Virus record (IMG/VR): IMGVR_UViG_3300005613_002292
Span: 1-26,445 of that record
DNA: 26,445 bases
Direction: 5' to 3' (one strand)
From: a virus
The notes under the pieces are model-generated. The model made no database searches. It worked only from the letters and a program-made list of their open reading frames with translations, and was not told the origin of the DNA. Position 1 is the stretch's first letter; each line of letters starts with the position of its first letter. A program made the translations under genes and the position numbers. This document shows, one piece after another, positions 4,174 to 26,445 of the stretch.

Positions 4174-4724
4174 TTTAATCTCCAAATAAGGTATTCATCT
4201 TTTTTAATAATAGAACCACATTGCCTACAATAATAAAACTCTCCACCTGGCATACCGTCTGGATATTCAATTAATGGTCCAAGAGTAGTATTCTTTCTCT
4301 TAAAATCAAGTCTCCTTCCACAAATTAAACAAAAATGTTCATGTTCAAGACCAAACTTTTTATAAGGAAAATAAAACTCTCCTTTACCTAGTTTTTGATA
4401 ATACTCGTCCTTTATTATTTTACCAGTGCCTTTGCCAACCGGTTTTAAAACTGGCACAGTTTTTTGTTTAATAAACTTATATGCTGTCAATCTATGCCAG
4501 CCATCTTTTATATAACCCTCTTCATCCACAATAAGTGGCGGTAAAACAACATCATTTAAAAGCAATTCAATATAAACATTGAGTTTTCTATCAGTAATAG
4601 TTTTGCCAATTTTTTTACCCATAGAAATATCAACCTTTTTAGTAGGCCATTCAACAATCTCCCAATTCTTATTCTGACCATCGCACACTTTTATTATTTT
4701 TGCTAAGTTTGGATAGTATTCCAT
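4170..4724 (-). CDS. ParB/sulfiredoxin-fold protein with C-terminal zinc ribbon
   Basis: This is a 184-aa protein with two parts. Residues about 20-100 carry IKDGWHRLTAYKFI (72-85), the DGxHR signature of the ParB/sulfiredoxin superfamily, whose members include DNA-binding partition proteins, nucleases and free-serine kinases. Residues about 132-175 hold two CxxC pairs (CLICG and CRQCG) that should bind zinc. The combination suggests binding of DNA, RNA or a nucleotide ligand, but the exact activity cannot be read from sequence. It sits inside a run of glycosyltransferases and overlaps its neighbours by 22 and 4 bp. A role as a small kinase or transferase supplying the glycan pathway is as possible as a regulatory role. 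Confidence 0.7.
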   Translation of the reverse strand: MEYYPNLAKIIKVCDGQNKNWEIVEWPTKKVDISMGKKIGKTITDRKLNVYIELLLNDVVLPPLIVDEEGYIKDGWHRLTAYKFIKQKTVPVLKPVGKGTGKIIKDEYYQKLGKGEFYFPYKKFGLEHEHFCLICGRRLDFKRKNTTLGPLIEYPDGMPGGEFYYCRQCGSIIKKDEYLIWRLK

Positions 4725-5359
4725 TTTAATAGCTTCACCATCCTTTCTCTTAAGTCCCAGTGGTTTTTAGCTTTGTAATAACCCACGCCACCATCAGGCA
4801 AATTAGTAATATATTTATTATCTTCTACAGCGGGAATGACTTTTGATTTATTAATCATACTTAAAATTAAATCTTCTTCTCTACCAAGATTTCCCAACTC
4901 TTTTTCTGCTTCAAACATTTTTAATAAAGCAGTTTTACATGTAAAGATTGTTCCGTTGCCAACCAATAAATCTACTTCTTTAGGTTTATCAATAGTATTA
5001 GCCCAAATGTTTTTAGCCGATCTATATGAATTGTCTTTTGAAAGTATCTTTCCCCTATAACCAAAGCAACAGCCCTTTTCAGCATGATTAGCAAAATTCT
5101 CTAGTGTTTTACTTCTAATAGTCATATCGTCATCTATAAAATAGTAGTAATCACTTGGTTTAAGCAAGGCAACCGCATATCTTGCTCTACCTCCATAATT
5201 AAAGTTGCTATTAATAGCCCCTTTGATTCTTACTTTTGGATTGTTGTTAAATACTATGATTTTAGGTTTAATAGAACCCCCTTTTAAATCATCAACAATT
5301 CGTTTTATGTTTTTAACCCGTTCTGGCCAATAATGAAGTATTACTGTAGTAATTTTCAT
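4703..5359 (-). CDS. GT2-like glycosyltransferase
   Basis: This is a 218-aa protein with a GT-A type layout: an N-terminal Rossmann-like half (MKITTVILHYWPERV), then YYFIDDDMT (72-80), whose DDD should bind the metal and nucleotide sugar. VGNGTIFTCK and GREEDLILS further on resemble the acceptor-side and catalytic-base region of family 2 enzymes. It is shorter than most (250-300 aa) and has no membrane segment. ATG at 5359 overlaps the preceding stop as ATGA. Donor and acceptor are unknown. It belongs to the same coupled operon as the other sugar transferases. Confidence 0.75.
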   Translation of the reverse strand: MKITTVILHYWPERVKNIKRIVDDLKGGSIKPKIIVFNNNPKVRIKGAINSNFNYGGRARYAVALLKPSDYYYFIDDDMTIRSKTLENFANHAEKGCCFGYRGKILSKDNSYRSAKNIWANTIDKPKEVDLLVGNGTIFTCKTALLKMFEAEKELGNLGREEDLILSMINKSKVIPAVEDNKYITNLPDGGVGYYKAKNHWDLRERMVKLLKWNTIQT

Positions 5360-6081
5360 TCTATAAATCCCTTTCCGTAATTAGCACTCATCTGATCAGG
5401 ATAAAGTTTATTCCATAAATCTTCTGGATATTTACCCCATTTCTTTTTAAAGTATTCCCTATTTATTTTGTCATACTTCGCTCTCTGTCCATCTGAAATA
5501 CTATCAAGTATTTTGAAAGTATGACTGCCCCAATGTTGATATTGAGCTTTGGTTGTATAAGCAGTTTTCCAACCTGCTTTTCTAAATCTTAACCAAAAAT
5601 CCCAGTCATCATAAGTACCTCTACCATCAAACTTTTCATCATAAAACTGTATTGCTTCTTTTCTTATTAAAAAGAATGAGCTAGTACACCATCTTTCTTT
5701 ACCAGTTATCCACACTTTATCCCCATTGTAAAAAGGCGTATCATAAAAAATCTCGTGAAAGTGAACCGAGCCAACCTTTTTATCCTTAAAGATATCTAAA
5801 GCTACTTTAAATATATTTTTTGGCACTCTAATATCATTGTTGCTAATACAAATAAATGGTGATTTTGCCAATCGCAAACCATTATTAACAGCTCTAGTGT
5901 AACCGTAGTTTTTATTAAGTCTAATATAAGTATCGGCAACCTCACGTAAATAACCAGCTCCATAAGTAGAGGCATTATCAACCAAGATAAGCTCGCTTTT
6001 AGGCAAGCTCTCTATTGATAATTGAGTTAAATTTAATGTTTCAGCAGTTGCAATCCAACAAGGTATTACTGTGCTAACCAT
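5356..6081 (-). CDS. GT2 glycosyltransferase (rhamnosyltransferase-like)
   Basis: This 241-aa protein has clear family 2 features: LILVDNAST (31-39), NYGYTRAVNNGL (58-69), the metal-site equivalent SNND (80-83), and GTYDDWDFWLRFRKAGW near 155-171. These phrases match the WbbL-like branch of GT2, which includes many rhamnosyltransferases, although substrate cannot be deduced. It is soluble, with no membrane helices. ATG at 6081 has AAGGA 5 bases upstream and the gene overlaps the previous one by 8 bp. It probably adds one sugar to a growing glycan together with its neighbours. Confidence 0.85.
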   Translation of the reverse strand: MVSTVIPCWIATAETLNLTQLSIESLPKSELILVDNASTYGAGYLREVADTYIRLNKNYGYTRAVNNGLRLAKSPFICISNNDIRVPKNIFKVALDIFKDKKVGSVHFHEIFYDTPFYNGDKVWITGKERWCTSSFFLIRKEAIQFYDEKFDGRGTYDDWDFWLRFRKAGWKTAYTTKAQYQHWGSHTFKILDSISDGQRAKYDKINREYFKKKWGKYPEDLWNKLYPDQMSANYGKGFIE

Positions 6082-6880
6082 TTATTCCTTTTAACACTGC
6101 TTTTAAGTAACAATCGGCAGTATAATTTTTTAATATAAACTCTCTTGGTGTCAAACCAGACTCCTTATATTCTTTAATATAGCTATAAGTTTTTCTGTTT
6201 CTTACTGGCTCTAAAACTTCGGGTAGTATATTACAACTCATCGCTTCTAAAACCGTTCTTTCTGAACCATGAATCGCAGGAATGATAACTTTTTCAGCCC
6301 TTCTGTAATAATCCCTTATTTTTTCTACTGGGAAATATCCTGTTTCTATATTTACACCAGTTTTTTTACAGGCTTCTAATTCTTCTTTTCCGTCTGGTTG
6401 AACCGTGCCGACACAAGTCAATCTGTTGCCTAAATAGGCAATATTAGACTGTAGTTTCCAATTGCTAAAAGTAGCAGGATAAAAGTATTCAATGTCTTTT
6501 TTAACCTTTTTAGGAGTAAAAAACTCAGCATCGGTTCCAAATGCTTTAATTGCTCTAACACCCAGCCTTCTAACCGCCTCATAGACAGGCGTTGATTCAC
6601 AAAACACCACATCAAAGCCTTTTAAATTATCAGGGTCATCAGGAGTTGTAGTTAAAAACAGTCCTCTTTTAGCATTATAAGTTGATTTCATTCTTGAAAA
6701 ATTGCTGTAGCTACCAGACCAAGCTAAAATCCAATCATATTCCTTTTTAGGTGTTTCAAATAACAACCAATCTACATTATGTATTTTCTCTAGTTTCTCT
6801 ATACAAGCCCTCAACCCATCACGCCATAAAGGCATAATCTCTTTTGCTTTATCCCACTCCCAAATAAGCGCAATATTCAT
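6074..6880 (-). CDS. GT-B fold (GT4-like) glycosyltransferase
   Basis: This 268-aa protein (ATG at 6880, not the GTG at 6895) has a GT-B pattern: an N-terminal domain ending in CESTPVYEAVRRLG, and a C-terminal donor domain with AIHGSERTVLEAMSCNILPEV (about 205-225), the usual glutamate-rich donor loop of GT4-type enzymes. It is short for the family, which normally has 350-400 residues, so the N-terminal domain is reduced. The chosen start makes an ATGA overlap with the previous stop and has AAGGG just upstream. No membrane helix is seen. Its place in the glycan operon supports a sugar-transfer role; the donor is unknown. Confidence 0.75.
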   Translation of the reverse strand: MNIALIWEWDKAKEIMPLWRDGLRACIEKLEKIHNVDWLLFETPKKEYDWILAWSGSYSNFSRMKSTYNAKRGLFLTTTPDDPDNLKGFDVVFCESTPVYEAVRRLGVRAIKAFGTDAEFFTPKKVKKDIEYFYPATFSNWKLQSNIAYLGNRLTCVGTVQPDGKEELEACKKTGVNIETGYFPVEKIRDYYRRAEKVIIPAIHGSERTVLEAMSCNILPEVLEPVRNRKTYSYIKEYKESGLTPREFILKNYTADCYLKAVLKGING

Positions 6881-7593
6881 AATAACCCTTTCCACTTTTC
6901 AGGTATATTTTCCTTTTCATTCATTCCAATTTGAAAATGCGCTTTGTCTTTTTTAAATCTACCTCTATTACAAAATAAATTCCAGTCAACTTTTTGTAAA
7001 TGCACCATAATTAAGTCTGGATCAGCTATTGACTTAAGATATTCTCCTATTCCTAGTTCAACTTTACTAGCTCTTCCCGCGTCTTCTTCTACATAATGAT
7101 AACCTTCTACATAATTAAGCGGTGCTTTAGAAATAGCAGGCTTGAAATAAGAAGGATGCGGCCACCAAATCTTTCTTTGAGATAAAATAGGTTTTTCCCA
7201 GTCTATTCCTCTTTCACCTTTTAATTGTAAAACCTCTCTACCGGTACAATAAACAGTCTCCTTGTCCATTTTAGTAATATAGTCATCTAAACTCTTATAC
7301 TTTTCAGGATTAACAATAATAAACTCATCAGCTTCAGCAAATATTACAACGTCATAGTCTTGTAAAAGTTTTCTTTGATATTGTTTGCCAGTCTCCTTCA
7401 TAAAAGTTTTACCATAATGACTATTATCATCTAAATAAAACTCGGTAAAATTAAAGTTCTTTTTGGCTCTTTCTACACTTCCATCAGTAGATTTATGATT
7501 GATAACAAAAAGATCAAATTGACTATAATGTTTTAACCACAGAGGTAAAAACACACTTTCATTTTTAACAACCGTAAAGACTGCTGTTCTCAT
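6877..7593 (-). CDS. Glycosyltransferase of the Glyco_tranf_2_4/GT92-like type
   Basis: This is a 238-aa protein. The start, FTVVKNESVFLPLWLKHY (6-23), followed by INHKSTDGS and IFAEADEF (84-91), is the pattern of the PF13704-like glycosyltransferases, with EAD as the metal-binding acidic motif. It is a clear paralogue of the gene at 9010-9753: both share WWPH, K-AISK-P, GYHY/GFHY and ADPDLIMVH. I moved the start to ATG 7593, which has GGAG upstream and an ATGA overlap, in place of GTG 7611. There are no membrane helices. Its close pairing with the GT75-like gene suggests linked steps in one glycan. Confidence 0.8.
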   Translation of the reverse strand: MRTAVFTVVKNESVFLPLWLKHYSQFDLFVINHKSTDGSVERAKKNFNFTEFYLDDNSHYGKTFMKETGKQYQRKLLQDYDVVIFAEADEFIIVNPEKYKSLDDYITKMDKETVYCTGREVLQLKGERGIDWEKPILSQRKIWWPHPSYFKPAISKAPLNYVEGYHYVEEDAGRASKVELGIGEYLKSIADPDLIMVHLQKVDWNLFCNRGRFKKDKAHFQIGMNEKENIPEKWKGLL

Positions 7594-8453
7594 TTCATAA
7601 ACTCCTTCCACCGTTCTAACTTTTTATGATAAACCTTAAAATACCTATCTGTATCTTCACCTTTCCAATATTCTTCATTTAATCTAATACCCTTAGCTTC
7701 CTTTTCAAGATTGTTAAACACATTACTGGCTTTCTCATGATAAGCAGCAGCAAAACCAGAAACTACAGCCCAACCACGCTTGTCTATCTCCCTCTTAGAG
7801 TTTATGCCACAAAAAATATCATCAAATCGGTGAACATTATAAACTCTAGGCGCCATATACATAAAAGGCAACATTTTCCTTTTAAAAGCTAAATTCATAC
7901 TAGACATAGGATAATAAACTCCTTTAGGAATAGGCTCTTTATAAAACTTAATGTTAACGTTTCCTTTAACCAACTGAGTAGGAGCATCATAATCAGCTAT
8001 ACCTCCCCAAATTCCATGTGATAATACCACCTCAGCCTCATTTCTAACCCCATAAGGAAAACCCCTTGTATATTCTGTTCCTGTCCTTGTCCAACTAATA
8101 GGCACTCTCATATTAAGAGCGTTAACATGATCTTGAACAGTATCTCCGATCGGTTTTAAATCATCATCTAAAGTAATAATATATTCAACCTCTGGACACT
8201 GCTTGGCAATATAAGCAAAACCCAAGTTCCTAACAGCAGCGGTAAGATTAGTAATTAAATCATTGTATTTACCCATTACCTGCTTGACCGACAATCTTTT
8301 ATCGTCACAAGTCTTTAAAACAGGCTCTTTACCATCATAAACAATAAAAACCCGACAGTTAAAATTCCAGTCTTTTAAAAACTGCCCTATCTTTTTAGGT
8401 CTTATTGTCGGAATAACGACAGCACAAGTTTTATCCTTTATTTTTTCTTGCAT
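7590..8453 (-). CDS. GT75-like protein (UDP-arabinopyranose mutase / RGP family)
   Basis: This 287-aa protein matches the plant reversibly glycosylated polypeptide family along its whole length. Visible landmarks are AVVIPTIRP (11-19), TLDDD (94-98, metal site), RGFPYGVRNE (130-139), IADYDAPTQLVK (152-163), YPMSSMNLAFKR (181-192), RFDD (209-212), and HEKASNVFNNLEKEAKGI (239-256). Family members interconvert UDP-L-arabinopyranose and UDP-L-arabinofuranose and glycosylate themselves reversibly on an arginine in the region matching 130-137. The inferred role is supplying a furanose donor, or using a related sugar, for the neighbouring transferases. It overlaps its neighbours by 16 and 4 bp. Family placement is strong; substrate is not proven. 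Confidence 0.85.
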   Translation of the reverse strand: MQEKIKDKTCAVVIPTIRPKKIGQFLKDWNFNCRVFIVYDGKEPVLKTCDDKRLSVKQVMGKYNDLITNLTAAVRNLGFAYIAKQCPEVEYIITLDDDLKPIGDTVQDHVNALNMRVPISWTRTGTEYTRGFPYGVRNEAEVVLSHGIWGGIADYDAPTQLVKGNVNIKFYKEPIPKGVYYPMSSMNLAFKRKMLPFMYMAPRVYNVHRFDDIFCGINSKREIDKRGWAVVSGFAAAYHEKASNVFNNLEKEAKGIRLNEEYWKGEDTDRYFKVYHKKLERWKEFMK

Positions 8454-9013
8454 ATTTGAAACATACTTTCTGTTCCTTCTTCGTTGATATAGTTTGTTCT
8501 TTCACTAAACAGATATCTTAAAGCATAAACAGCTGGCTTGACATAATGTTTTTCAGCATGATAATAATCATGAAACAAAATGTAGTTACCAACTCTCACT
8601 TCTGGCACCCAAGCGGCAATATCTTTTCTTACTGACAACTCTTGATGATCACCATCAATAATTAGCAAATCAATTGGTTCGTGCCATGTTCTACTACCTT
8701 CAACAGAATCAACATGATGCAAATGCCAATTTTTAATACCTTCCATATTTTTAAGACATTCTTTTTTCGCAGCCTCTCCCCTGATTATACCGTCATCCTT
8801 ATATTCATAATGAGAAATATAAGAATCAAATGAATGTATTTGACTTTTAGGTGAAGACAAACAAAGCATCTTGCTTGATCTTCCCATATAAGAGCCAATT
8901 TCTACAATTGTTCCGTTCACTTTAGAGGCATAATCATACAATACTTCACAATCACACTCAGGCATCCAGCCCCTTATATGCTTTACTTGATTAAATACTT
9001 CTTTAAATGTCAA
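8438..9013 (-). CDS. Class I SAM methyltransferase (Methyltransf_24-like)
   Basis: This is a 191-aa protein with the SAM-binding motif GTIVEIGSYMGRSS (34-47), an acidic strand end HSFDSY, and LLIIDGDHQELSVRKD about residues 115-130 (motif with metal or substrate contact), then GNYILFHDY. This order is that of the Methyltransf_24 family, which often methylates sugars or small hydroxylated groups. The TTG start at 9013 is supported by AAGGAGG four bases upstream and by a TTGA overlap with the previous stop. Its location between two transferases suggests O-methylation of a sugar in the phage glycan. Substrate is inferred only. Confidence 0.8.
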   Translation of the reverse strand: MTFKEVFNQVKHIRGWMPECDCEVLYDYASKVNGTIVEIGSYMGRSSKMLCLSSPKSQIHSFDSYISHYEYKDDGIIRGEAAKKECLKNMEGIKNWHLHHVDSVEGSRTWHEPIDLLIIDGDHQELSVRKDIAAWVPEVRVGNYILFHDYYHAEKHYVKPAVYALRYLFSERTNYINEEGTESMFQICKKK

Positions 9014-9753
9014 AAAACCTCCTTATATTTTAACGGGATTAAGGAACATTTTCCTTTCCGTTTACTAACAAATTTATAAAAAGGAGTGTCTGCACCCTCC
9101 CTTTTTGTTTTTAATCTTTCAAACTCTTCAGCATCTATAAATCTTGTATGCACCATAATTAAATCTGGATCAGCTATTTTTTGTATATAGTCCTTTATGC
9201 CAAGTTCACACTTTGCGGCTTTAGCAATAAAACTTTTAGGATAATGAAAGCCCCAAACAAACTTTTGTGGCACTTTTGAAATTGCTGTTTTATAATGAGC
9301 GCTATGCGGCCACCAATGCTTCCTTTGTTTCATCCACGGTTTATTCCATTCCATAGCTAGTTCGTCTTTATGCTGTATAATTTCTTTACCAGAACAAGTA
9401 ACTTCTTTCCTTTTTACTTTTTTAACATAATCCTCAAAATCTTTATACTTGTCTGGATTTGCAATAATAAACTCGTCTAAATCAGTATAAACTACATAAT
9501 CATACTTTTTTAACAGTCTTTTCTGCTGTTCTTGTATTGCATTCACACATAAATCGTGATAATCACCAGTCCCCACAACACCAAGTTCTTTTAATTTAAT
9601 TTCTTCAAATTTATATCCATAAGTAGGTAAATCTTTTTGTTTATCACTCAAATTAACCACATAAACATCAAAATTAAATTGACAATAATACTTTAACCAA
9701 TGTTTAAACCAAAAGTTATAATTTCTAACATAAACCAAACAAGCTATTTTCAT
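9010..9753 (-). CDS. Glycosyltransferase, paralogue of the 6877-7593 gene
   Basis: This is a 247-aa protein starting MKIACLVYVRNYNFWFKHWL, with YVVYTDLDEF (86-95) as the acidic metal motif. It shares long stretches with its paralogue at 6877-7593 (DEFII-NP-KYK, WWPH, AISK-P, ADPDLIMVH), so one arose from the other by duplication. The N-terminal VKNE motif of the paralogue is VRNY here, a change at a usually conserved place. I chose ATG 9753 because it overlaps the previous stop as ATGA; the earlier in-frame ATG at 9780 would overlap the upstream gene more. It is soluble. The pair flanks a methyltransferase and the GT75-like gene, hinting at a four-gene functional unit. Confidence 0.78.
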   Translation of the reverse strand: MKIACLVYVRNYNFWFKHWLKYYCQFNFDVYVVNLSDKQKDLPTYGYKFEEIKLKELGVVGTGDYHDLCVNAIQEQQKRLLKKYDYVVYTDLDEFIIANPDKYKDFEDYVKKVKRKEVTCSGKEIIQHKDELAMEWNKPWMKQRKHWWPHSAHYKTAISKVPQKFVWGFHYPKSFIAKAAKCELGIKDYIQKIADPDLIMVHTRFIDAEEFERLKTKREGADTPFYKFVSKRKGKCSLIPLKYKEVF

Positions 9754-10349
9754 ATTACTATTAAGCCAAATCCTGACCAATGAAGGTCTGGTAATGATAA
9801 TTTAGGATATTTAATTTCATCCCATGCTTTAATCATCCCATCATTAAGTCTAATATCATCTATTAATATAATTGTTCCTTTTTTAAAGTATTGATCATAT
9901 AATTTTAGTTCAGTATGTAACTGGGTGTAGTTATGATCTGTATCAAAAAACCACAAATCAGTCTTTTCAAGCTGGCAATCTTTAGGCCATGTTGCTAAAT
10001 CAAGATCATTTCCTCTTATTAGCGTTAGATTAGGATAATCTTGCTTAATAAATCTAAATTCTTCTTCAGGTTCAGGAATAGAACAAGCGTAAAGCATTGA
10101 ATTTTCAGGTAAGGTTGATAACATCATTAAAGCTGAAGCGCCACCAGCAGACCCAAGCTCTACGACTTGTTTTGGTTTAATTGCCTTTACAAGTGCGGCT
10201 AAATAACGATAATACCTTGATGTAGAAACATTATTAATATCATTAAGACTACCTTGATTGACATGTTTAAGATAAGGTTGAATCTTTTTCATGTCCAACT
10301 TAACTAGTTTGTCTCTAGCTAATTTGTCTATCTCTTTAGGTGTTACCAT
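9750..10349 (-). CDS. Class I SAM methyltransferase
   Basis: This 199-aa protein has QVVELGSAGGASALMML (60-76) as the SAM-binding loop and LWFFDTDHNYTQLHTEL near 130-146, the pattern seen in Methyltransf_24 and cephalosporin-hydroxylase-like methyltransferases. GTIILIDDI follows, the expected strand after the catalytic region. The N-terminal 55 residues are helical and may bind the substrate. It overlaps the small zinc-finger gene by 7 bp and the next transferase by 4 bp. Sugar O-methylation is the likeliest role given the neighbours, but protein or nucleic acid substrates are not excluded. Confidence 0.78.
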   Translation of the reverse strand: MVTPKEIDKLARDKLVKLDMKKIQPYLKHVNQGSLNDINNVSTSRYYRYLAALVKAIKPKQVVELGSAGGASALMMLSTLPENSMLYACSIPEPEEEFRFIKQDYPNLTLIRGNDLDLATWPKDCQLEKTDLWFFDTDHNYTQLHTELKLYDQYFKKGTIILIDDIRLNDGMIKAWDEIKYPKLSLPDLHWSGFGLIVI

Positions 10350-10524: not shown

Positions 10525-11304
10525 TTACCTCCTTTGGTAAGAAAAACAAACTAAACCATCTTTACTAAAAAGGTCTCCTATTTTATAATCTTTTAAAAGC
10601 TCCTTGATTGTTTCTTTTGTAAACACTCTTATATGTCCTCTCGGTAGTTTGCCATCCCATTCCCAACCGCCCTCAATATTTCCCATACCATTACCATAGG
10701 GACCATCTGGAGTGGTAACATAAACCCATCCCTTAGGTTTAACCATCTTAGCCATATGGTCTATAAAATCCTTTGGATCAACTACTACATGTTCAAATAC
10801 TTCCATACAGGAAACAAAATCAACCTTTTCCTTTGGCATAAAAGTCGTTATATCTTCTTGAACAAACTTAGCTTTAACACCCAACTCTTCAGCTCTTTGT
10901 CTTGCTACTTTAAGAGCGCCATTGGTCATTTCAACTCCAGTGGCTTTTATTCCACATTTACTAGCATAAATAACTATACTGCCAACATAACAGCCAAGAT
11001 CAATCATAGATTTAGATTTATATTTTTCTAAACCATCAACAATCCACTGATAACGAGCATATCTAATACCTGGATTAAGTGCTATAGCAGCTGGTTCAAT
11101 ATTTTCGCAGTCGTCAGCAGGAACATCAAGTAGCTTCTCTAACCACTTTGGCTCAAAAACATGACGAACTATACCGTAAGTATTTTTTCGTTCTTCGTCT
11201 AAATCTAAATCCTTAAAATGTTCTAGTAGTTTCCACGCCTTAAGTGGTTCATCTTTGATTACTAATTCTTTTCTAATTATTTTAATAGCTGATTTTATGT
11301 CCAT
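10525..11304 (-). CDS. Class I SAM methyltransferase (Methyltransf_11/23-like)
   Basis: This 259-aa protein carries SMIDLGCYVGSIVIYASKCG (SAM loop, about 99-118), GVEMTNGALKVARQRA with an acidic ribose-binding Glu, FVQEDITTF and SCMEVFEHV, followed by PKGWVYVTTPDG. This is the standard motif order of Methyltransf_11/23 enzymes. An N-terminal 90-residue helical region precedes the core. It overlaps the split GT4 gene by 23 bp. Such enzymes within glycan clusters often methylate a terminal sugar and so cap a chain; that role is inferred from context here. Confidence 0.8.
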   Translation of the reverse strand: MDIKSAIKIIRKELVIKDEPLKAWKLLEHFKDLDLDEERKNTYGIVRHVFEPKWLEKLLDVPADDCENIEPAAIALNPGIRYARYQWIVDGLEKYKSKSMIDLGCYVGSIVIYASKCGIKATGVEMTNGALKVARQRAEELGVKAKFVQEDITTFMPKEKVDFVSCMEVFEHVVVDPKDFIDHMAKMVKPKGWVYVTTPDGPYGNGMGNIEGGWEWDGKLPRGHIRVFTKETIKELLKDYKIGDLFSKDGLVCFSYQRR

Positions 11305-12010
11305 ATTTCTTTTGCATTTGAACCGGTAATAATTTAGCCAATGACTTATCTTTTTTTAATAATACATCCATTGCTTCTTTTAAATCGTCTTGTTTAAATT
11401 CATTAGACCACTTCTCCGCCACTTTTCTCCACCCAAAGGTATCCTTGCCCCACTTCATCATTGGTTTTCTAATTTCTTCTTGTCTTTTGTGATCTTTTAA
11501 AAGATTAATCAACTGCTTTTTATATTCTTCCTTTACTTCTGGTTCATAAATGTCGCCTTCAATTTTAATTCCATGTTGAACTGTAGTTTTTAAAGCAGCA
11601 TAGTTAACACAAACGGGAATAGCCCCCCATGCTTGAGCCTTCATGGCGCTTATACAGCTTATTTCTCCAAAGTGTGTAGGATAAGTCCATAAACCACATT
11701 TTTTATACCACTTCTCAATCTCTGGTTGTGAAACACGCCCATGATGAGTAATACCATCTGCTTTCATCATTTTGTCCATTTTCTCCTTCCACGCCATTGA
11801 GGCTGGATTATTAGCGTAAAAACGAACAAATAACTGCCAGCCATAGAAAATATGAAGCTCCGCTTGTGGAACTGCCTTTTTAACATCAGGCCACATTTTC
11901 AACAAATGCTCCAAGCCACGATCGTACGAACTACAGTACAAACACCAATAGGGATTACGCTTTCCCAAGTTTTTTTTGCCAATATTTTTTGTTATAATTT
12001 GTTTTTCCAT
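11282..12010 (-). CDS. GT4 donor-domain half of a split glycosyltransferase
   Basis: This is a 242-aa protein. From about residue 18 it matches the C-terminal Rossmann domain of GT4 enzymes: YCSSYDRGLEHLLKMWPDVK (25-44), ELHIFYGW, HHGRVSQPEIEKWY and THFGEISCISAMKAQAWGA. The second glutamate of the usual E-x7-E motif (E116) is Lys124. The N-terminal acceptor domain is absent and is found instead at the end of the next gene upstream (12204-14042). The two parts would join at the GT-B hinge. The first 16 codons overlap the HNH reading frame in another frame, so they may not be ancestral. ATG 12010 has only a weak AAGAAG site. It may work as a two-chain enzyme or be inactive. Confidence 0.8.
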   Translation of the reverse strand: MEKQIITKNIGKKNLGKRNPYWCLYCSSYDRGLEHLLKMWPDVKKAVPQAELHIFYGWQLFVRFYANNPASMAWKEKMDKMMKADGITHHGRVSQPEIEKWYKKCGLWTYPTHFGEISCISAMKAQAWGAIPVCVNYAALKTTVQHGIKIEGDIYEPEVKEEYKKQLINLLKDHKRQEEIRKPMMKWGKDTFGWRKVAEKWSNEFKQDDLKEAMDVLLKKDKSLAKLLPVQMQKKYGHKISY

Positions 12011-12200
12011 GACACTTCTTACATAGACTAATTAAATTTTTAGGATCAATATTTTTTTTATCATAATCAATATGATGGCAAGATAGCTTGCAACCTAATT
12101 CTTTTTCTGTTTTGCCACAAATTTGACAAGTATAATTGTCTCTTTTCCTTATCTGTCTTTTTAACTGTCCATTGAAATCTTTTGTATATGGCTCGGTTGT
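11955..12200 (-). pseudogene. HNH endonuclease domain without start codon, inserted in a GT4 gene
   Basis: An 81-codon open frame directly follows two stop codons (TGA TAA) that end the upstream glycosyltransferase. It reads TTEPYTKDFNGQLKRQIRKR, then DNYTCQICGKTE, SCHHIDYDKKN and NLISLCKKCHGKTNYN. This is a complete HNH core: two CxxC zinc pairs, the catalytic His in HHIDY, the Asn and the final CH. There is no ATG, GTG or TTG in the frame. It is in the same frame as the upstream gene but separated by the stops. The usual N-terminal DNA-recognition part of homing HNH enzymes is missing. I read it as the decayed remainder of a homing-type endonuclease; stop read-through or a non-standard start cannot be excluded. 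Confidence 0.75.
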
Positions 12201-12203
12201 TTA

Positions 12204-14042
12204 TCATAAATCAACTCCATTACCTGTAATCATTATTTTATCATCAGGTATATCGGGCAAGTTTTCTCTATGCCACTGACTTAAAACCATAATTTTAGTA
12301 ATTTTATCTAATCGTTCTTTGGTATAGTCTAGCTGATTTTGAATGTCGTGGCACCAAATGTAAATCTTTTTAGCATTATAATTTCCGTCAACAAAATTAG
12401 GCTGTCTCCAAGCTATTACAATATTAAAAGTGTCTTTAGCGTTAAACTTAAAATAAGGTTTGTATGTAACTCCGTCATATTCCCCTTCATCTGCTCCTGG
12501 ATCAGCATAGACAGTAACCTTCCAACCTATTTTAGCCAATTCCTTACTCATGTAAATAACTGCTTCCTCACTTCCACCTATAAAGGATTGTCCTGGCTTA
12601 TCTAAAGACTTAGGCGACCATGGGGTATAACTAAATCCACAAACAATAGCAATTTCATTTTCTCCCCATATTCTCGGCGGAATAACCCTTTTGCTAAGCT
12701 CTGACATAAAAGGATTGTTAACAATTAAATTAGGCAATGAAAGCAATAATGGTTTTAGTTTCTCCTTTTGTCCTGATTGTTCTAAATGTTGAGATAAACT
12801 TATTACACTTTTAGTTAACTTCTTTTGAAGAACCAAATTGTTAGTAAACTTTACTCTCTCAGCCATAGATTTATTATTAGGTAAAAGCTCTTTAAGTTTT
12901 TGAGAAGCCGCCCACGCCTCATCAATTTTACCAGTGTGAATAGAAGCATGAAAAATAATCTCTAAAGCTCTTGCCATTAAATCACGGGGATTACTTACTA
13001 ACGTTGAACGGGGACTTTTGATTTTAGAAGCTAATTTAACCCAGTGTAATGCTCTTTCCCATTCCTTTTTAACCAGATAAGACATAGCTAGATTAAGATA
13101 AGCACCAGGAAACCTGTCATCCTCTATTAAAGAATTATGACCGCATTTTATAGCATTGTTTGTTTCTCCAAAAGCACGATAAATCTCTACTAAATATTCC
13201 CAGCATTGTGCCCGTTCTTCTGCCCATCCCGACTGATTCTCGCCACTTACATAAGCCAAAAACAATGTTTTAGCTGATTTTAAAAACTCCTTATTCTTAG
13301 TAGTCAACCAAACGTCAAAATGAGCTTTACCTAAATAATAAATAGGACGAGGGTCTTTGCCTTTTGTTTCATAAAGACTTAACTCCAAGTTTTTAATATT
13401 TCTTAATAATGCCTTTTTTGACCTTTTTGAATTAGATAAATGAAGAACATCACACCAATCATTTTCCCCTTTCTTTGTAGGTTTTTGTTCGATTAAGGTT
13501 TCATGAATACAAGCTATCCACTTATGAACGCCCGTATTTCTAATTATCCTTTCTCTCAAATGTTCAATCAAAATATTTCTAACTTTGTTATTAACAATCT
13601 CCGCCTGATAAATGTAATTCATGAAAACACTATCTAATTTATTTGCTTCTGCCCATTTAATAATTTCCCTTAACCTATTACCTCTGAAAATATCATCAAC
13701 ATCTAACCATATCATCCATTCAAATTCCTTTGGTGTTTGAGCTAAATTATGATTTCTCGCTTTATCAAATAAGAAGATTTTGTCACCAACTTCTATCTCT
13801 GGATTTAAACCAAACTTTTTTAACCACTTAATATGTTTCTTTTTAATAATTTTAAAAAACTTTTTAGGTTCATAATCAACTACAGCACCATATTTTTCAG
13901 CCACTGCTTTTAAGTTGTTATTAGTTGGAGTTGTAATGGTAATAAACATTCCGTCCACTTGCCCATAAATAGAATTTAAAACTCTATTAAGTATTTTTGG
14001 GTCTTCATGCCCCGCCACAATCATGTTTAAAGCGATTTTCAT
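12204..14042 (-). CDS. GT2-TPR-GT4 glycosyltransferase, truncated in its GT4 domain
   Basis: This is a 612-aa protein with three parts. Residues 1-220 are a GT-A domain with WLDVDD (112-117) as metal site. Residues about 230-390 form helical TPR-like repeats. Residues about 463-612 are the N-terminal half of a GT4 GT-B domain, with FIGGSEEAVIYMSKELAK (487-504), VTVYADPG, IYIWCHD and ITGNGVDL at the very end. A normal GT4 continues after NGVDL into the donor domain, but here two stops occur and an HNH domain follows; the missing half is encoded at 11282-12010. The GT2 part looks intact. ATG 14042 overlaps the previous stop as ATGA. It probably built two linkages of one glycan before the split. 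Confidence 0.85.
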   Translation of the reverse strand: MKIALNMIVAGHEDPKILNRVLNSIYGQVDGMFITITTPTNNNLKAVAEKYGAVVDYEPKKFFKIIKKKHIKWLKKFGLNPEIEVGDKIFLFDKARNHNLAQTPKEFEWMIWLDVDDIFRGNRLREIIKWAEANKLDSVFMNYIYQAEIVNNKVRNILIEHLRERIIRNTGVHKWIACIHETLIEQKPTKKGENDWCDVLHLSNSKRSKKALLRNIKNLELSLYETKGKDPRPIYYLGKAHFDVWLTTKNKEFLKSAKTLFLAYVSGENQSGWAEERAQCWEYLVEIYRAFGETNNAIKCGHNSLIEDDRFPGAYLNLAMSYLVKKEWERALHWVKLASKIKSPRSTLVSNPRDLMARALEIIFHASIHTGKIDEAWAASQKLKELLPNNKSMAERVKFTNNLVLQKKLTKSVISLSQHLEQSGQKEKLKPLLLSLPNLIVNNPFMSELSKRVIPPRIWGENEIAIVCGFSYTPWSPKSLDKPGQSFIGGSEEAVIYMSKELAKIGWKVTVYADPGADEGEYDGVTYKPYFKFNAKDTFNIVIAWRQPNFVDGNYNAKKIYIWCHDIQNQLDYTKERLDKITKIMVLSQWHRENLPDIPDDKIMITGNGVDL

Positions 14043-19149: not shown

Positions 19150-19926
19150 TTATTTCCAGACAACTATTTCTAACTCCAGATTAGTTTTATCCTGTATCCT
19201 TTTTACTAATGTCAATACTTCTTTTGAAGTTGCCCCGCCAGTATTTAAAATAAAAGAGGGAAACATTGGAGAAACTACTGCTCGACCCTCCCATTCTCCA
19301 ACCATTTTCGCTTTTCTAATTATGTCATTTCCACCCCAACTCCCCTTAAACCAACAGCCAGCTGAAGGAAAAGAAGGATAGTCCCTTTTACGCTTCTCCT
19401 GTATTCTGTTATAAAGCTCTATCAAGTTTTTGGCGGGTTTCATTTGAAAAATAGCACTAAGAACAATCCAATCATGAAAAGCGCTTGTTCTATGTCCAAA
19501 ACCGCATTCCTCTTTGGTAAACAATTTTACTTTCTTTGTTTTCCGATTAAGAGCTTTAACACTAATTAGATAATCTGAAATTGTGCCAAGAGACGCACCT
19601 GCGTTCATAATTATAGCCCCACCGATAGTCCCTGGTATTCCCGACACGTGGACAAGTCCTTTTAAACCCTTCTTAGCGGTTATCAAACCCGCTTTCTTTA
19701 ACAAGAAGCCCGCACCTACTACTAACCTTGTTCCAGTGAGTTTAAAATCGTTCAACTCAATTTTTATAACTTTATCAACTCCCCTATCAGAAACTAAAAT
19801 ATTAGTCCCAGCTCCCAAGATATAACCATTTAAATCTATTGCCATTAAGTCTTTTAAAGACTTGATAATGTGAAATCGTTTAGCAGGACCCCCTATTTTA
19901 TAACTTGTCCGATTTTTTAATTCCAT
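19150..19926 (-). CDS. murB: MurB-like UDP-N-acetylenolpyruvoylglucosamine reductase
   Basis: MurB uses FAD and NADPH to make UDP-N-acetylmuramate, the second committed step of peptidoglycan synthesis, in the cytosol. This 258-aa protein shows SYKIGGPA (8-15), YILGAGTNILVSDRG (35-49), VSGIPGTIGGAIIMNAGA (94-111), GHRTSAF (144-150), PSAGCWFKG (187-195) and a final LELEIVVWK. Thus both FAD segments, the arginine (146) and the terminal Glu are present. The catalytic Ser of the E. coli enzyme is replaced by Cys191; I cannot say whether this lowers activity. It is short compared with the usual 300 aa but complete. It overlaps the pyruvyl transferase gene by 29 bp, and its place between terL and portal is unusual. 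Confidence 0.88.
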   Translation of the reverse strand: MELKNRTSYKIGGPAKRFHIIKSLKDLMAIDLNGYILGAGTNILVSDRGVDKVIKIELNDFKLTGTRLVVGAGFLLKKAGLITAKKGLKGLVHVSGIPGTIGGAIIMNAGASLGTISDYLISVKALNRKTKKVKLFTKEECGFGHRTSAFHDWIVLSAIFQMKPAKNLIELYNRIQEKRKRDYPSFPSAGCWFKGSWGGNDIIRKAKMVGEWEGRAVVSPMFPSFILNTGGATSKEVLTLVKRIQDKTNLELEIVVWK

Positions 19927-20947
19927 TAATTATTAATTGATAAACCATTTCTGCTTTTCTTCGGACGCTCGGAATAGTCTTCTCCAATCCTTTTCTGATT
20001 TCCTTTTTATTCTTCCAAACCTTAACAGCTTGTTTAAATATTTCTTCAGCAGTCGGCATTAAAAGCATTTCTTTATAAGGATAATCAATCATTTCTAACA
20101 ATCCTGGCATTTTAAATCCTATGTCTGGTGTCATTGCCACAAATGGAGTACAAGCAGAAGCAGAATAAACTATCCCGTGATATCTATCTGACACTAAAAT
20201 TCCATCTTTAAGAATATCAATTAGTTGTCCAGCATCAGGTCTATCATCAACAACAAATGATTTATGATTCATCATCTTTGCTATTTCTCTAGCTTGCACT
20301 CTATCATCACGACTACCATGACCAATAGGAATAAACACAACAGGTCCCATTGTTTCTACTGCCATATCAGCAAATCTTGCTACTTCTTTTAAGTTATTAG
20401 CAAGATAACCCCTAATACCTATTTTAACTGCATTTTGTGGAAGAGCTTTAAATGGTTTAGGCTTAACAGTAAAAACACCATCAGGAAGTAATTTAATATG
20501 GTCCCCTTTAGCACCTATATCTTCAGTGATTAATTTATATGAATCTTTCTCTCTAGCAACAACTAAATTTGCTTTATTTAATACAATCTTGCCTAACTCC
20601 TTAGTTTTGTCGCTTAGATTACCTATAAAAGTCTGAGAACCAAAGAAAGTCAATTTACCAAGAGATTGAGCAATCCTAAAATAATTAAAATGATTAATCA
20701 TATCGTCCCCATTCATATAGCCACCACCTTGACTGATCACTACATTTGATTCTTCTAGTGCTTTAGATGACAACAATGGCATTACTTTTACATAATCAAG
20801 CTGTTCTAAATCCCATCTTTCGGTTTTCTGCGAACAAATAGTGAAAGTAGCAGAAAAAGCTTCTTTTAAGTGATTCATCATACTTTTCCAAATTGCCACA
20901 TCTCCTGTGTTGCCTGTCTGCCAACAATGAGTGAATAAGATTTTCAT
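19898..20947 (-). CDS. Polysaccharide pyruvyl transferase (CsaB-like)
   Basis: This is a 349-aa protein of the PS_pyruv_trans family, which adds a pyruvate ketal from phosphoenolpyruvate to sugars of cell-wall or exopolysaccharides. Motifs are GNTGDVAI near the start, VVISQGGGYMNGDD (about 70-83), LVVAREKDSY, LLPDGVF and ILVSDRYHGIVYSASACTPFVA, where the His lies in the donor site. ATG 20947 was chosen because GGAGG lies 7 bases ahead and it overlaps the previous stop as ATGA; the ATG at 20953 is too close to that site. In CsaB systems the product anchors S-layer proteins. Beside MurB it suggests the phage alters a host surface polymer. Confidence 0.87.
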   Translation of the reverse strand: MKILFTHCWQTGNTGDVAIWKSMMNHLKEAFSATFTICSQKTERWDLEQLDYVKVMPLLSSKALEESNVVISQGGGYMNGDDMINHFNYFRIAQSLGKLTFFGSQTFIGNLSDKTKELGKIVLNKANLVVAREKDSYKLITEDIGAKGDHIKLLPDGVFTVKPKPFKALPQNAVKIGIRGYLANNLKEVARFADMAVETMGPVVFIPIGHGSRDDRVQAREIAKMMNHKSFVVDDRPDAGQLIDILKDGILVSDRYHGIVYSASACTPFVAMTPDIGFKMPGLLEMIDYPYKEMLLMPTAEEIFKQAVKVWKNKKEIRKGLEKTIPSVRRKAEMVYQLIINGIKKSDKL

Positions 20948-21228
20948 TTCCATACCTCCCTAATCATAAAAGACTTAATGTTTACATTGTCTGTTTCTTC
21001 TGATTTAATTTGAGTTACATTATTATTTTGGACAAATGTTCTTATCGTGCCATAACCTGTCCCAAGTCCAATATTGCCCAACGCTCTAATATATCTAGGA
21101 ATGATAAGTGGATTAACTCCTGTTTCTGCTAGTGCTACTTTAATCATATACAATTCAGGGTCTAACTTCCTAATAACGTTCCAGTAAGTTTCTAAGTTTG
21201 CTTTTTCTACTGTTGGTAATGATTTCAT
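20944..21228 (-). CDS. Small unknown protein after large terminase
   Basis: This is a 94-aa protein with a helical N-terminus and a PLIIPRYIRALGNIGLGTGYGT segment (40-61), ending in a charged tail. It overlaps terL and the pyruvyl transferase gene by 4 bp each, so it is probably co-translated. I do not recognise the family. Small genes in this place may aid DNA packaging or regulate late genes, but nothing in the sequence decides that. Confidence 0.7.
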   Translation of the reverse strand: MKSLPTVEKANLETYWNVIRKLDPELYMIKVALAETGVNPLIIPRYIRALGNIGLGTGYGTIRTFVQNNNVTQIKSEETDNVNIKSFMIREVWK

Positions 21229-24853: not shown

Positions 24854-25090
24854 TTAGCCAGAGCCAGAGCCAGAGCCAGAGCCATAGCCATCGCCATCGC
24901 CAGAGCCAGAGCCATAGCCAGAGCCATCGCCATAGCCAGAGCCATGGCCAGAGCCATCGCCATAGCCAGAGCCATGGCCAGAGCCAGAGCCATAGCCATC
25001 GCCAGAGCCAGAGCCATAGCCAGAGCCATCGCCATAGCCAGAGCCAGAGCCAGAGCCATCGCCAGAGCCTTTTTTATCTATTTCTTCCAC
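24854..25090 (-). CDS. Glycine-X dipeptide repeat protein
   Basis: This 78-aa protein consists of MEEIDKK followed by 71 residues in which every second one is Gly and the others are Ser, Tyr, Asp or His (GSGYGDGSGYG and similar). It has no hydrophobic core and is probably disordered or forms an open, flexible rod. The start is GTG 25090 with GGGGGTG five bases ahead; it overlaps the DUF6948-like gene by 13 bp. I recall similar Gly-rich proteins next to DUF6948 genes in other phages, but not a function. The repeat DNA is open in the other two minus frames and one plus frame too; those frames lack ribosome sites. Confidence 0.75.
   Translation of the reverse strand: MEEIDKKGSGDGSGSGSGYGDGSGYGSGSGDGYGSGSGHGSGYGDGSGHGSGYGDGSGYGSGSGDGDGYGSGSGSGSG
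24857..25069. repeat. 213-bp GCC-NNN hexanucleotide repeat tract
   Basis: The tract is made of GCCAGA, GCCATA, GCCATC and GCCATG units, 71 codons long, coding for the Gly-X protein. A larger 30-base unit (AGAGCCATCGCCATAGCC...) is repeated near 24925-24985. Such tracts change length by slippage in whole codons. Confidence 0.95.
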
Positions 25091-25440
25091 TCTTGCACCC
25101 CCTTTATGCTTTTCCTTGCTTTTTCAGTTACAGGAATAACCTCAATCACTTCAGTTAATTGATGTTCGCCTTCAATCTCACAGGGAAATTTACAGTTTTC
25201 AGGTTTAGAAACACCATCAACTGCTAGTTGAGAAAGAGAAGCCGCCCCATCCCAATACCAAAGCCTTCTTGAATTAAGAAGTGTAGCTTCTTTACCCTTC
25301 CTGCTTTTAAGATATCCAGCGAATACCCCTGCTGAATAAGTCCTTAGAATTACATAATCAAGCCCTTTATTTTTACTAGCGAGCTTTTTAGAACTAGCTG
25401 GCACATATTCTATACCATCAATCATTACTGCTTTTTTCAT
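25078..25440 (-). CDS. DUF6948-like protein
   Basis: This 120-aa protein has YVILRTYSAGVFAGYLKSRKG (29-49), LLNSRRLWYWDGAASLSQLA (54-73) and a closing VIEVIPVTEKARKSI, the order I recall for DUF6948 phage proteins (RTYSAGVFAG ... RRLWYW-GA ... IPxTexA). The function of the family is unknown to me. It overlaps the HIT-like gene by an ATGA; its ribosome site GAAAGGAG is part of the 46-bp repeat. The glycine-repeat gene follows immediately, and this pairing seems recurrent in phages. Confidence 0.72.
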   Translation of the reverse strand: MKKAVMIDGIEYVPASSKKLASKNKGLDYVILRTYSAGVFAGYLKSRKGKEATLLNSRRLWYWDGAASLSQLAVDGVSKPENCKFPCEIEGEHQLTEVIEVIPVTEKARKSIKGVQEWKK

Positions 25441-25829
25441 GCTTTTCTCCTTTCTATGCCTTTAACCTCTCGGGCATTTTTTAAATAATTATTTATTTTC
25501 TCCTCATTTTCCTCTTTTAACAAATTTATAATTAAACCCCTTTTGAAATTTTTTGAAGGAATAAAATGTCTATGATAATGAAAAACCTCTTGTAATTTAG
25601 GCGGGTGGACAAAAGTAACTGGTTGAGAATAGTGTTTTTCCACCCATTTCCACGCTCTAATAGAACATTCTTTAAAACCTTCGGGCAATTCTTCTTCTTT
25701 TCTGACATGCTTTTTAGGAATTAAAAGGCAATGACCTTCAACTACAGGAAATTTATCCTTAAAGAAAATATAATTATCGGTTTCAAAAATAATCTCATGG
25801 TCTTGTAAATTGCAAAAAGGGCATTTCAT
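25437..25829 (-). CDS. HIT-family protein with appended C-terminal tail
   Basis: This 130-aa protein has CPFC (3-6), FPVVEGHCLLIPKKHVR (27-43) and EVFHYHRHFIP (about 81-91), the HxHxH histidine triad with the middle His as the likely nucleophile. HIT proteins hydrolyse or transfer nucleotidyl groups. The triad spacing fits a HIT hydrolase of small size. The last 20 residues (NYLKNAREVKGIERRKA) come from the 46-bp repeat shared with the 147-aa gene and are not part of the HIT fold. It overlaps the second HIT gene by an ATGA. Nucleotide or nucleotide-sugar handling would fit the sugar-rich genome, but the substrate is unknown. Confidence 0.8.
   Translation of the reverse strand: MKCPFCNLQDHEIIFETDNYIFFKDKFPVVEGHCLLIPKKHVRKEEELPEGFKECSIRAWKWVEKHYSQPVTFVHPPKLQEVFHYHRHFIPSKNFKRGLIINLLKEENEEKINNYLKNAREVKGIERRKA
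25445..25490 (-). repeat. 46-bp direct repeat, copy 2
   Basis: Perfectly identical to 24140-24185. It forms the end of the HIT-like gene and holds the ribosome site of the DUF6948-like gene that follows. Confidence 0.9.
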
Positions 25830-26445
25830 CTTTTAATCTCCTTTAAATTAGTTAATCTTCTTTGAAAAATAATCTTGCTTTCATCATCCAATTCCTTCCA
25901 ATCAAGAAAAGGTTGTTCTGGTTCAGTCAACTCATCAATAACTCTCCTGAAAAACTGTGATGGTAATTCATGACCATCCTCAGGCACAAGAAAACCATGC
26001 TCGCCTTGTCTAAACATAAAATAGCCATTTCCATCAACTAGTCTATTTAATTGCTTAATCGTAGAAAGACCGTCAAAATGAACATACTGCGGTTTTACTC
26101 CCGCCTGTCTGGTTTTTTCTACTACTTGTGCTAGCATATTTCTATTAGTAGGAATTAAATGAGTATGGGCGTGAAGAACCGACTTAACCTTAACCTTATC
26201 AGCCAGCTCACCATGCTCAAACATAATAAAATCTCTATCGGCTAAGTGTTTAACTAGTCCGTCCATCTCCTGATCAAATCCTTCTGGTAAATGGCTAAAA
26301 GCTTGATAATGCTCTCTCGGAGTTATAAGATAATGAGGTTCATCAACTACTGGATAGGCTTCACCAAAAGCTAGTAAATGAGGAGTTTCTGCTACTATTA
26401 GTTTTGCTCCTAATTCTGGCAATAATTGCCTGACATTTTCAGCAT
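25826..26445 (-). CDS. HIT-family protein, 5' end outside window
   Basis: This frame is open to the right edge; the residues ahead of the internal TTG at 26422 read AENVRQLL, so the start lies beyond 26445. The visible part (at least 206 residues) has HTHLIP preceded by HA (HAHTHLIP), the histidine triad, and AYPVVDEPHYLITPREHYQAF, the matching upstream strand and helix. The C-terminal 90 residues are extra relative to a minimal HIT protein. It is a distant paralogue of the next gene. A nucleotide hydrolase or transferase activity is inferred from the triad. Confidence 0.82.
   Translation of the reverse strand, partial: AENVRQLLPELGAKLIVAETPHLLAFGEAYPVVDEPHYLITPREHYQAFSHLPEGFDQEMDGLVKHLADRDFIMFEHGELADKVKVKSVLHAHTHLIPTNRNMLAQVVEKTRQAGVKPQYVHFDGLSTIKQLNRLVDGNGYFMFRQGEHGFLVPEDGHELPSQFFRRVIDELTEPEQPFLDWKELDDESKIIFQRRLTNLKEIKR

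Follow-up and report, generated by a model that had tools for sequence, protein, structure and literature searches.

The stretch of DNA analyzed here (the window) is an IMG/VR contig of 26,445 bases that is viral, with genes for a terminase, an SU10-like portal and a major head protein, and in which no tRNA or known RNA family was found. On the minus strand, an open reading frame running from position 8453 to position 7590 encodes a 287 aa protein, P0003, that is homologous to the GT75 enzymes, also known as reversibly glycosylated polypeptides (RGP). The coordinates given in the initial annotation are right, with the correction that the gene is on the minus strand, the plus strand being interrupted by many stops across the same interval; the four motifs that it listed are all present in the order given, namely, RGFPYGVR (residues 130–137), DYDAPTQLVK (154–163), YPMSSMNLAF (181–190) and HEKASN (239–244). 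Elsewhere in the window, the segment that separates the portal from the terminase (19150–20953, minus strand) codes for a MurB-like protein, the match to UDP-N-acetylmuramate dehydrogenase scoring 176 bits and so falling short of the curated 259, and for a polysaccharide pyruvyl transferase resembling CsaB. At 25437–26422 (minus strand), two HIT-domain proteins are encoded side by side, which is unusual for a phage, and positions 24856–25069 hold about 36 copies of the 6-base unit AGCCAG, an array that is open in several frames, reading as Ala/Met or Gly/Ser/Tyr/Asp repeats.

The GT75 gene belongs to a one-strand run of overlapping genes, located between the head protein and a tail-fiber-like protein, that encodes GT2-, GT4- and Glyco_tranf_2_4-type proteins along with three methyltransferases (all coordinates in this paragraph are on the minus strand; values are from Pfam unless indicated otherwise). 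Its upstream neighbor, a Methyltransf_24 methyltransferase (8438–9013; 8.4e-15), overlaps its start by 16 nt, and its downstream neighbor, a glycosyltransferase-like Glyco_tranf_2_4 protein (6877–7611; 8.8e-10), overlaps its end by 22 nt, which suggests that these genes share one transcript. Farther downstream are a possible Glyco_trans_1_4 glycosyltransferase (6074–6895; 6.5e-4, below the cut-off), a GT2 glycosyltransferase (5356–6081; 1.3e-9) and a possible second one (4703–5359; 3.8e-4, below the cut-off). Upstream of the adjacent methyltransferase, the run continues with another Glyco_tranf_2_4-like protein (9010–9780; 9.8e-4, below the cut-off), a Methyltransf_24 methyltransferase resembling CmcI and rhamnosyl O-methyltransferases (9750–10349; 3.8e-12), a Methyltransf_23 methyltransferase (10525–11304; 2.4e-21), the C-terminal half of a GT4-type glycosyltransferase (11282–12010; Glycos_transf_1, 4.4e-11), and a gene for a GT2-like region plus the N-terminal half of a GT4-type enzyme (12204–14042; GT2, 2.9e-5; Glyco_transf_4, 7.8e-5; phrog_13126, 1e-22). 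Three phages, those of the window (11960–12210) and of two related loci discussed below, L186 and L185, have the GT4-type gene divided at an identical point: a short HNH-like reading frame lies in the break in the window and a 160-aa HNH protein in L186 (9914–10396), and in L185 there is no insert, with the two halves overlapping by ATGA. Among the window genes searched, we recognized no DNA-modifying enzyme, and DNA is accordingly not the target that we favor for the glycan.

P0003 is a GT75/RGP homolog by every test that we ran. The Pfam RGP profile (PF03214) matches it with an E-value of 4.2e-32 and 112.1 bits, against a curated cut-off of 23.8, a result confirmed on the record that excludes a chance match of motifs; PHROGs gave no family for this protein. 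In a phmmer search of the PDB, P0003 matched a UDP-arabinopyranose mutase (8cid; 6.8e-15) and the MtdL entries (about 6e-5), and a profile built from six relatives retrieved, at E-values up to 0.01, GT75 structures only (about 1e-31 for MtdL and 3.5e-30 for the rice protein OsUAM2). The comparison of a predicted structure with a plant UDP-arabinopyranose mutase (UAM), which the initial annotation had proposed, gave the same answer. The AlphaFold2 model of P0003, made with 52 locus-derived sequences as input (pLDDT 95.8, pTM 0.92), aligned in VIA-align with OsUAM2 at Z 27.9 (271 residues, 2.5 Å) and with MtdL at Z 25.7–26.3, whereas the best structure from any other GT-A family reached Z 14.6, so that GT2 or another GT-A family can be rejected. 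The match to OsUAM2 spans residues 4–287, that is, the GT-A N-terminal region, the GT75-specific core and the C-terminal helices. The proposed GT75 membership is thus upheld by sequence, by predicted fold and, as follows, by the active-site residues.

Following the residue numbers used in the structural study of MtdL (PMC9937993), we mapped the essential residues onto 93 relatives (all codons on the minus strand). Arg130 (codon 8064–8066) is the arginine that had been flagged near residues 130–137; it aligns with Arg159 of MtdL and Arg158 of rice OsUAM1, the proposed nucleophile, which is autoglycosylated in plants (PMC9937993), and is Arg in 93 of the 93 relatives. The DDD motif (Asp96–98, codons 8160–8168) is predicted to bind the metal and the nucleotide, and its first and third residues, the equivalents of MtdL Asp109 and Asp111, are invariant in the same set. 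Equally invariant are Asp154 (7992–7994; MtdL Asp195), Arg209 (7827–7829; MtdL Arg257, which contacts the beta-phosphate and the sugar) and Asp212 (7818–7820; MtdL Asp260, the proposed general base), and His239 (7737–7739; MtdL His287, an Mn2+ ligand) is kept in 92 of the 93; Ser185 aligns with MtdL S228. P0003 therefore retains Asp96, Arg130, Asp154, Arg209 and Asp212, the positions at which mutation abolishes MtdL activity and which are conserved across bacterial and plant enzymes, as well as the metal ligands Asp98 and His239. Inactive OsUAM2 lacks the equivalents of Asp111, Arg257 (Thr in this protein) and His287, whereas P0003 has all three, and we reject an inactive OsUAM2-like paralog.

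P0003 is a genuine and probably active GT75 enzyme, and by analogy with the family, a mutase role is likely. It is also conceivable that P0003 acts chiefly in self-glycosylation or sugar transfer, as a GT-A enzyme devoid of mutase activity that would pass, for example, a sugar from Arg130 to another acceptor. Members of GT75 do autoglycosylate the conserved arginine with sugars on which they have no mutase activity, UDP-Glc in the case of AtRGP2, and some plant members have no mutase activity (PMC9937993), but the catalytic set of P0003 is that of the active mutases, unlike that of OsUAM2, and we consider this possibility quite unlikely.

The positions that select the substrate are another matter. 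At MtdL position 13 (Thr), which is involved in base selectivity, P0003 has the plant-like Pro15, and MtdL Gln229 is replaced by Met, as in most of the relatives. Position 86 is Ser in MtdL, Asp in the active plant enzymes and Thr71 in P0003; position 87 is Asp in MtdL, Ser in the active plant enzymes and in the L185 ortholog, and Ala72 in P0003. At position 87, Asp to Ser and Asp to Asn changes kill MtdL and a Ser to Asp change kills AtRGP2, S to A being outside the mutations tried (PMC9937993). Thr71 and Ala72, at predicted base and sugar contact positions, match neither MtdL nor the plant enzymes. Given that the characterized GT75 enzymes act on UDP-Ara, UDP-Gal, GDP-Fuc or GDP-L-Gal (PMC9937993), and that the catalytic core is intact but positions 86 and 87 vary, neither the sugar nor the base can be read from the sequence.

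Relatives of P0003 are widespread. The viral collection yielded 85 confirmed GT75-relative loci, of which 80 were kept, and the genome collection yielded 252 stretches, with the 80 that were kept being mostly haloarchaeal, along with some from Patescibacteria and others. The gene is therefore not unique to this phage. Moreover, UniProt/BFVD already names a phage ‘Reversibly glycosylated polypeptide (Fragment)’ (A0A6J5N5Z7), and a passage in a 2025 paper mentions phage GT75 in soil, with Xu et al. 2024 as the source, all of which lessens the surprise that the initial annotation attached to a phage-encoded GT75. A GT75 phylogeny, also proposed there, places the window within a clade of phages: in the careful tree of 94 rows, it falls among 8 rows (96/93) nested within a larger group of 24 rows (100/100), from which OsUAM2, MtdL, and the archaeal and patescibacterial rows stand apart; the tree leaves out the active plant class-1 RGPs and says nothing on kinship with them. 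In a quick tree of the same rows, the 24-row group consists of phage contigs and one Saccharimonadales contig, and the GT75 genes of patescibacterial chromosomes cluster separately.

Two close phages show how the gene is maintained. In L185, the head protein is 93% identical, the gene order is the same, with the methyltransferase at 8438–9013 again next to GT75 except for one extra methyltransferase in between, and the GT75 proteins are 65.9% identical with dN/dS of 0.23 (0.07–0.31 for the other island genes compared), that is, the GT75 gene is under purifying selection and keeps its position within an island of glycosyltransferase and methyltransferase genes that adjoins structural genes. In L186, the head protein is 73% identical and the island is similar, except that the stretch from the methyltransferases to the Glyco_tranf_2_4 gene lacks GT75. 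Retention in L185 under selection combined with absence from L186 indicates that the gene is selected where present but is accessory in the island. A decaying or neutral passenger might be invoked on the grounds that the gene is missing from the homologous L186 island and evolves faster than the capsid gene (66% vs 93% identity), but the open frame, the invariant active site, the dN/dS value and the position kept in L185 all argue against this reading, which we deem highly improbable.

The genes encoded near GT75 in related phages bear on the identity of the sugar. In the window itself, which may represent only part of a genome, there was no match to PF16363, PF01370 or PF00984 and no nucleotidylyltransferase; the donor could also come from the host. 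The phage of locus L090, the nearest to the window by tree path, encodes an NDP-sugar dehydrogenase core with the GxGFxGxCxPKD motif, an SDR closest to UDP-glucuronate decarboxylase (E-value 2e-47) and a second SDR closest to UDP-glucose 4-epimerase (3e-30), all on the GT75 strand and within about 31 kb. The UXS-like, 4-epimerase-like, NDP-sugar-dehydrogenase-like and GT75 genes of this single phage record are located at L177:12611–13462, L177:4718–5545, L178:3329–4162 and L090:8010–8882; the record also holds an aminotransferase gene and many glycosyltransferase genes. By its sequence relationships, the L090 set would suit UDP-L-Araf, with possible steps from UDP-Glc through UDP-GlcA, UDP-Xyl and UDP-Arap to UDP-Araf.

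The L090 set, together with the plant-like Pro15 and the HxKASN loop, is compatible with P0003 being a UDP-L-arabinopyranose mutase that makes UDP-L-Araf from UDP-L-Arap provided by the host or by phage genes outside the fragment. However, the L090 assignments reflect nearest solved relatives only, the genes concerned are spread over about 31 kb of an island that also includes the aminotransferase and other sugar genes, the window lacks the dehydrogenase, UXS-like and epimerase-like genes, P0003 has Thr rather than the plant Asp at MtdL position 86, and what the sister subclade encodes instead is an RmlB-type hexose 4,6-dehydratase, so that we regard this specific assignment as unlikely.

In that sister subclade, each of the 9 loci (L098, L099, L102–L104, L106, L107, L002 and L003) has an SDR gene immediately upstream of GT75. 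These SDRs carry STDE and YxxSK motifs; for the five that were scored, the best NCBIfam model is dTDP-glucose 4,6-dehydratase (198–227 bits, below the equivalog cut-off of 365), and dTDP-glucose dehydratases are the best matches of the two that were compared with the PDB. Because the dehydratase gene is directly upstream in every locus of this subclade, phage GT75 appears to be tied to donor synthesis. An RmlB-type SDR is also found downstream of GT75 in 3 of the 4 members of a separate GT75 clade, at distances of 39, 121 and 2,167 nt. This recurrent pairing, the epimerase-like SDRs in other GT75 phages and the ability of plant GT75 enzymes to make UDP-Galf (PMC9937993) would all fit a mutase acting on a dTDP- or UDP-linked 6-deoxyhexose, or on some other hexose donor, whose product might be a deoxyhexofuranose or galactofuranose. 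On the other hand, the RmlB-like proteins score under the equivalog cut-off, their direct product would have a ketone at C4 and could not form a furanose before reduction, and the window has no RmlB-type SDR. It counts further against a hexose mutase that we know of no GT75 enzyme that uses dTDP-sugars. All in all, we consider this reading possible, albeit somewhat unlikely. A full dTDP-sugar pathway in the GT75 phages is rejected, given that no RmlA-type nucleotidylyltransferase was found in 26 records.

Further variation was observed in the relatives at L008, L088, L089, L091 and L092, which encode an NDP-sugar dehydrogenase shortened to about 257 aa (L008:888–1658) that keeps the catalytic CxPKD (CLKKD in L088), apparently without the C-terminal nucleotide-binding domain. 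A conserved protein of about 160–174 aa in the GT75 islands (L008:3687–4208, L088, L091, L092, L094 and L097) belongs to no NCBIfam family and, by eye, looks like a shortened NAD-binding protein. Taken together, the GT75 part of the initial annotation stands, but its ‘UDP-arabinopyranose mutase’ and ‘L-arabinofuranose’ are not established: Thr71/Ala72 differ from the active plant enzymes, none of the sugar-nucleotide genes sought is in the window, and related phages pair GT75 either with an RmlB-type dehydratase or with UXS-like and epimerase-like proteins. L-Arabinofuranose is possible as one of several options, and of the leads obtained, the repeated pairing of GT75 with a dehydratase and the gene set of L090 are the most interesting.

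With regard to the host, locus L008 makes up one end of a contig in a Saccharimonadales MAG, the rest of which, by eye, carries bacterial housekeeping genes (valS, tsaD, groEL, argS and tatC), with tail-protein-like genes nearby. The only RGP match in this MAG is in the L008 island, and an assembly error is possible; among 379 sampled genomes of the phylum of G001, the group that holds this MAG, only 3 have an RGP match. The Saccharimonadales contig (L166–L167), which otherwise looks chromosomal, carries a phage-type GT75 island and tail-like genes and is a possible host link for this phage clade. A relative of the head protein of the window was found in only 1 of the 379 genomes, and the terminase gave distant matches only, to many cultured phages.

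The interpretation that we favor, with reasonable although not high confidence, is that P0003 is an Arg130-dependent NDP-pyranose/furanose mutase that supplies a furanosyl donor to the glycosyltransferases of the phage. By the precedent of characterized family members, such a GT-A-fold, divalent-metal-dependent enzyme would reversibly convert an NDP-pyranose to an NDP-furanose through a sugar bound covalently to Arg130, Asp212 acting as the general base and Asp98 and His239 holding the metal. The genomic context suggests that the donor would be used by glycosyltransferases of the same overlapping gene run and that the virion or the surface of the infected cell is the most likely site of the glycan. 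To our knowledge, no phage or archaeal GT75 member has a measured activity, and none of the neighboring enzymes in the window is known as a furanosyltransferase. Further points against this interpretation are Ala72 at MtdL position 87, Met in place of MtdL Gln229, the existence of plant GT75 proteins devoid of mutase activity, and the lack, in this 26-kb record, of any donor-forming gene from the families searched.

More tentatively, a large, previously uncharacterized lineage of phage GT75 mutases, partly with patescibacterial (Saccharimonadota) hosts, might make rare furanose donors, in some phages through full phage-encoded routes, either a plant-like one from UDP-Glc to UDP-Araf, as in the L090 phage, or a 4,6-dehydratase-linked one to a deoxyhexofuranose; we lean against this broader scenario on present evidence, but if it holds, the latter route would represent a new GT75 substrate class. 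Few enzyme types make furanose donors and few bacterial GT75 enzymes have been characterized, so that this diverse phage clade, in which the active sites are intact, the substrate-selecting positions vary and several members are linked to sugar-nucleotide enzymes, offers testable catalysts. The clade also offers a testable idea of the sugar that is put on the phages themselves or on their hosts, and would afford a rare view of the glycan chemistry of phages that infect Patescibacteria, a group difficult to culture.

Among the closest known systems are the bacterial GT75 enzymes MtdL and Hyg20, which are GDP-L-Gal/GDP-L-Fuc pyranose mutases (PDB 7xpr–7xpv and 7yua). P0003 shares with MtdL the fold (about 268 residues aligned, Z about 26) and the catalytic set, with Asp96–98, R130, D154, S185, R209, D212 and H239 corresponding to DDD 109–111, R159, D195, S228, R257, D260 and H287. 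It is, however, only about 22% identical to MtdL, is shorter (287 aa vs about 376 aa), differs at Thr13 (Pro), Ser86 (Thr), Asp87 (Ala) and Gln229 (Met), and is encoded in a phage glycan island rather than in an antibiotic cluster. With the plant UAM/RGPs (OsUAM1, AtRGP2 and OsUAM2), P0003 has in common the RGP profile, the RGFPY and HxKASN motifs, the conserved Arg and the fold, but it is about 60 residues shorter and has Thr/Ala instead of the plant Asp/Ser at MtdL positions 86 and 87; the solved plant structure used in the comparison, OsUAM2 (8cid), is of the inactive class. The uncultured Caudovirales phage protein A0A6J5N5Z7 is 39% identical to P0003, has the same fold and is likewise phage-encoded, although it is known by annotation only. 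UDP-galactopyranose mutase (UGM) is FAD-dependent and unrelated in fold to the GT-A-fold P0003. The type of reaction is nevertheless the same, that is, pyranose/furanose interconversion on an NDP-sugar (PMC9937993). Finally, phage RB69, with its arabinosyl-hmC DNA, and Shewanella phage Thanatos, with a UDP-xylose pyrophosphorylase, illustrate pentose and UDP-pentose metabolism used by phages for glycosylation; unlike the proposed role of P0003, these systems concern DNA bases, and the respective reports mention no mutase or furanose (PMC6024577, PMC12838424).
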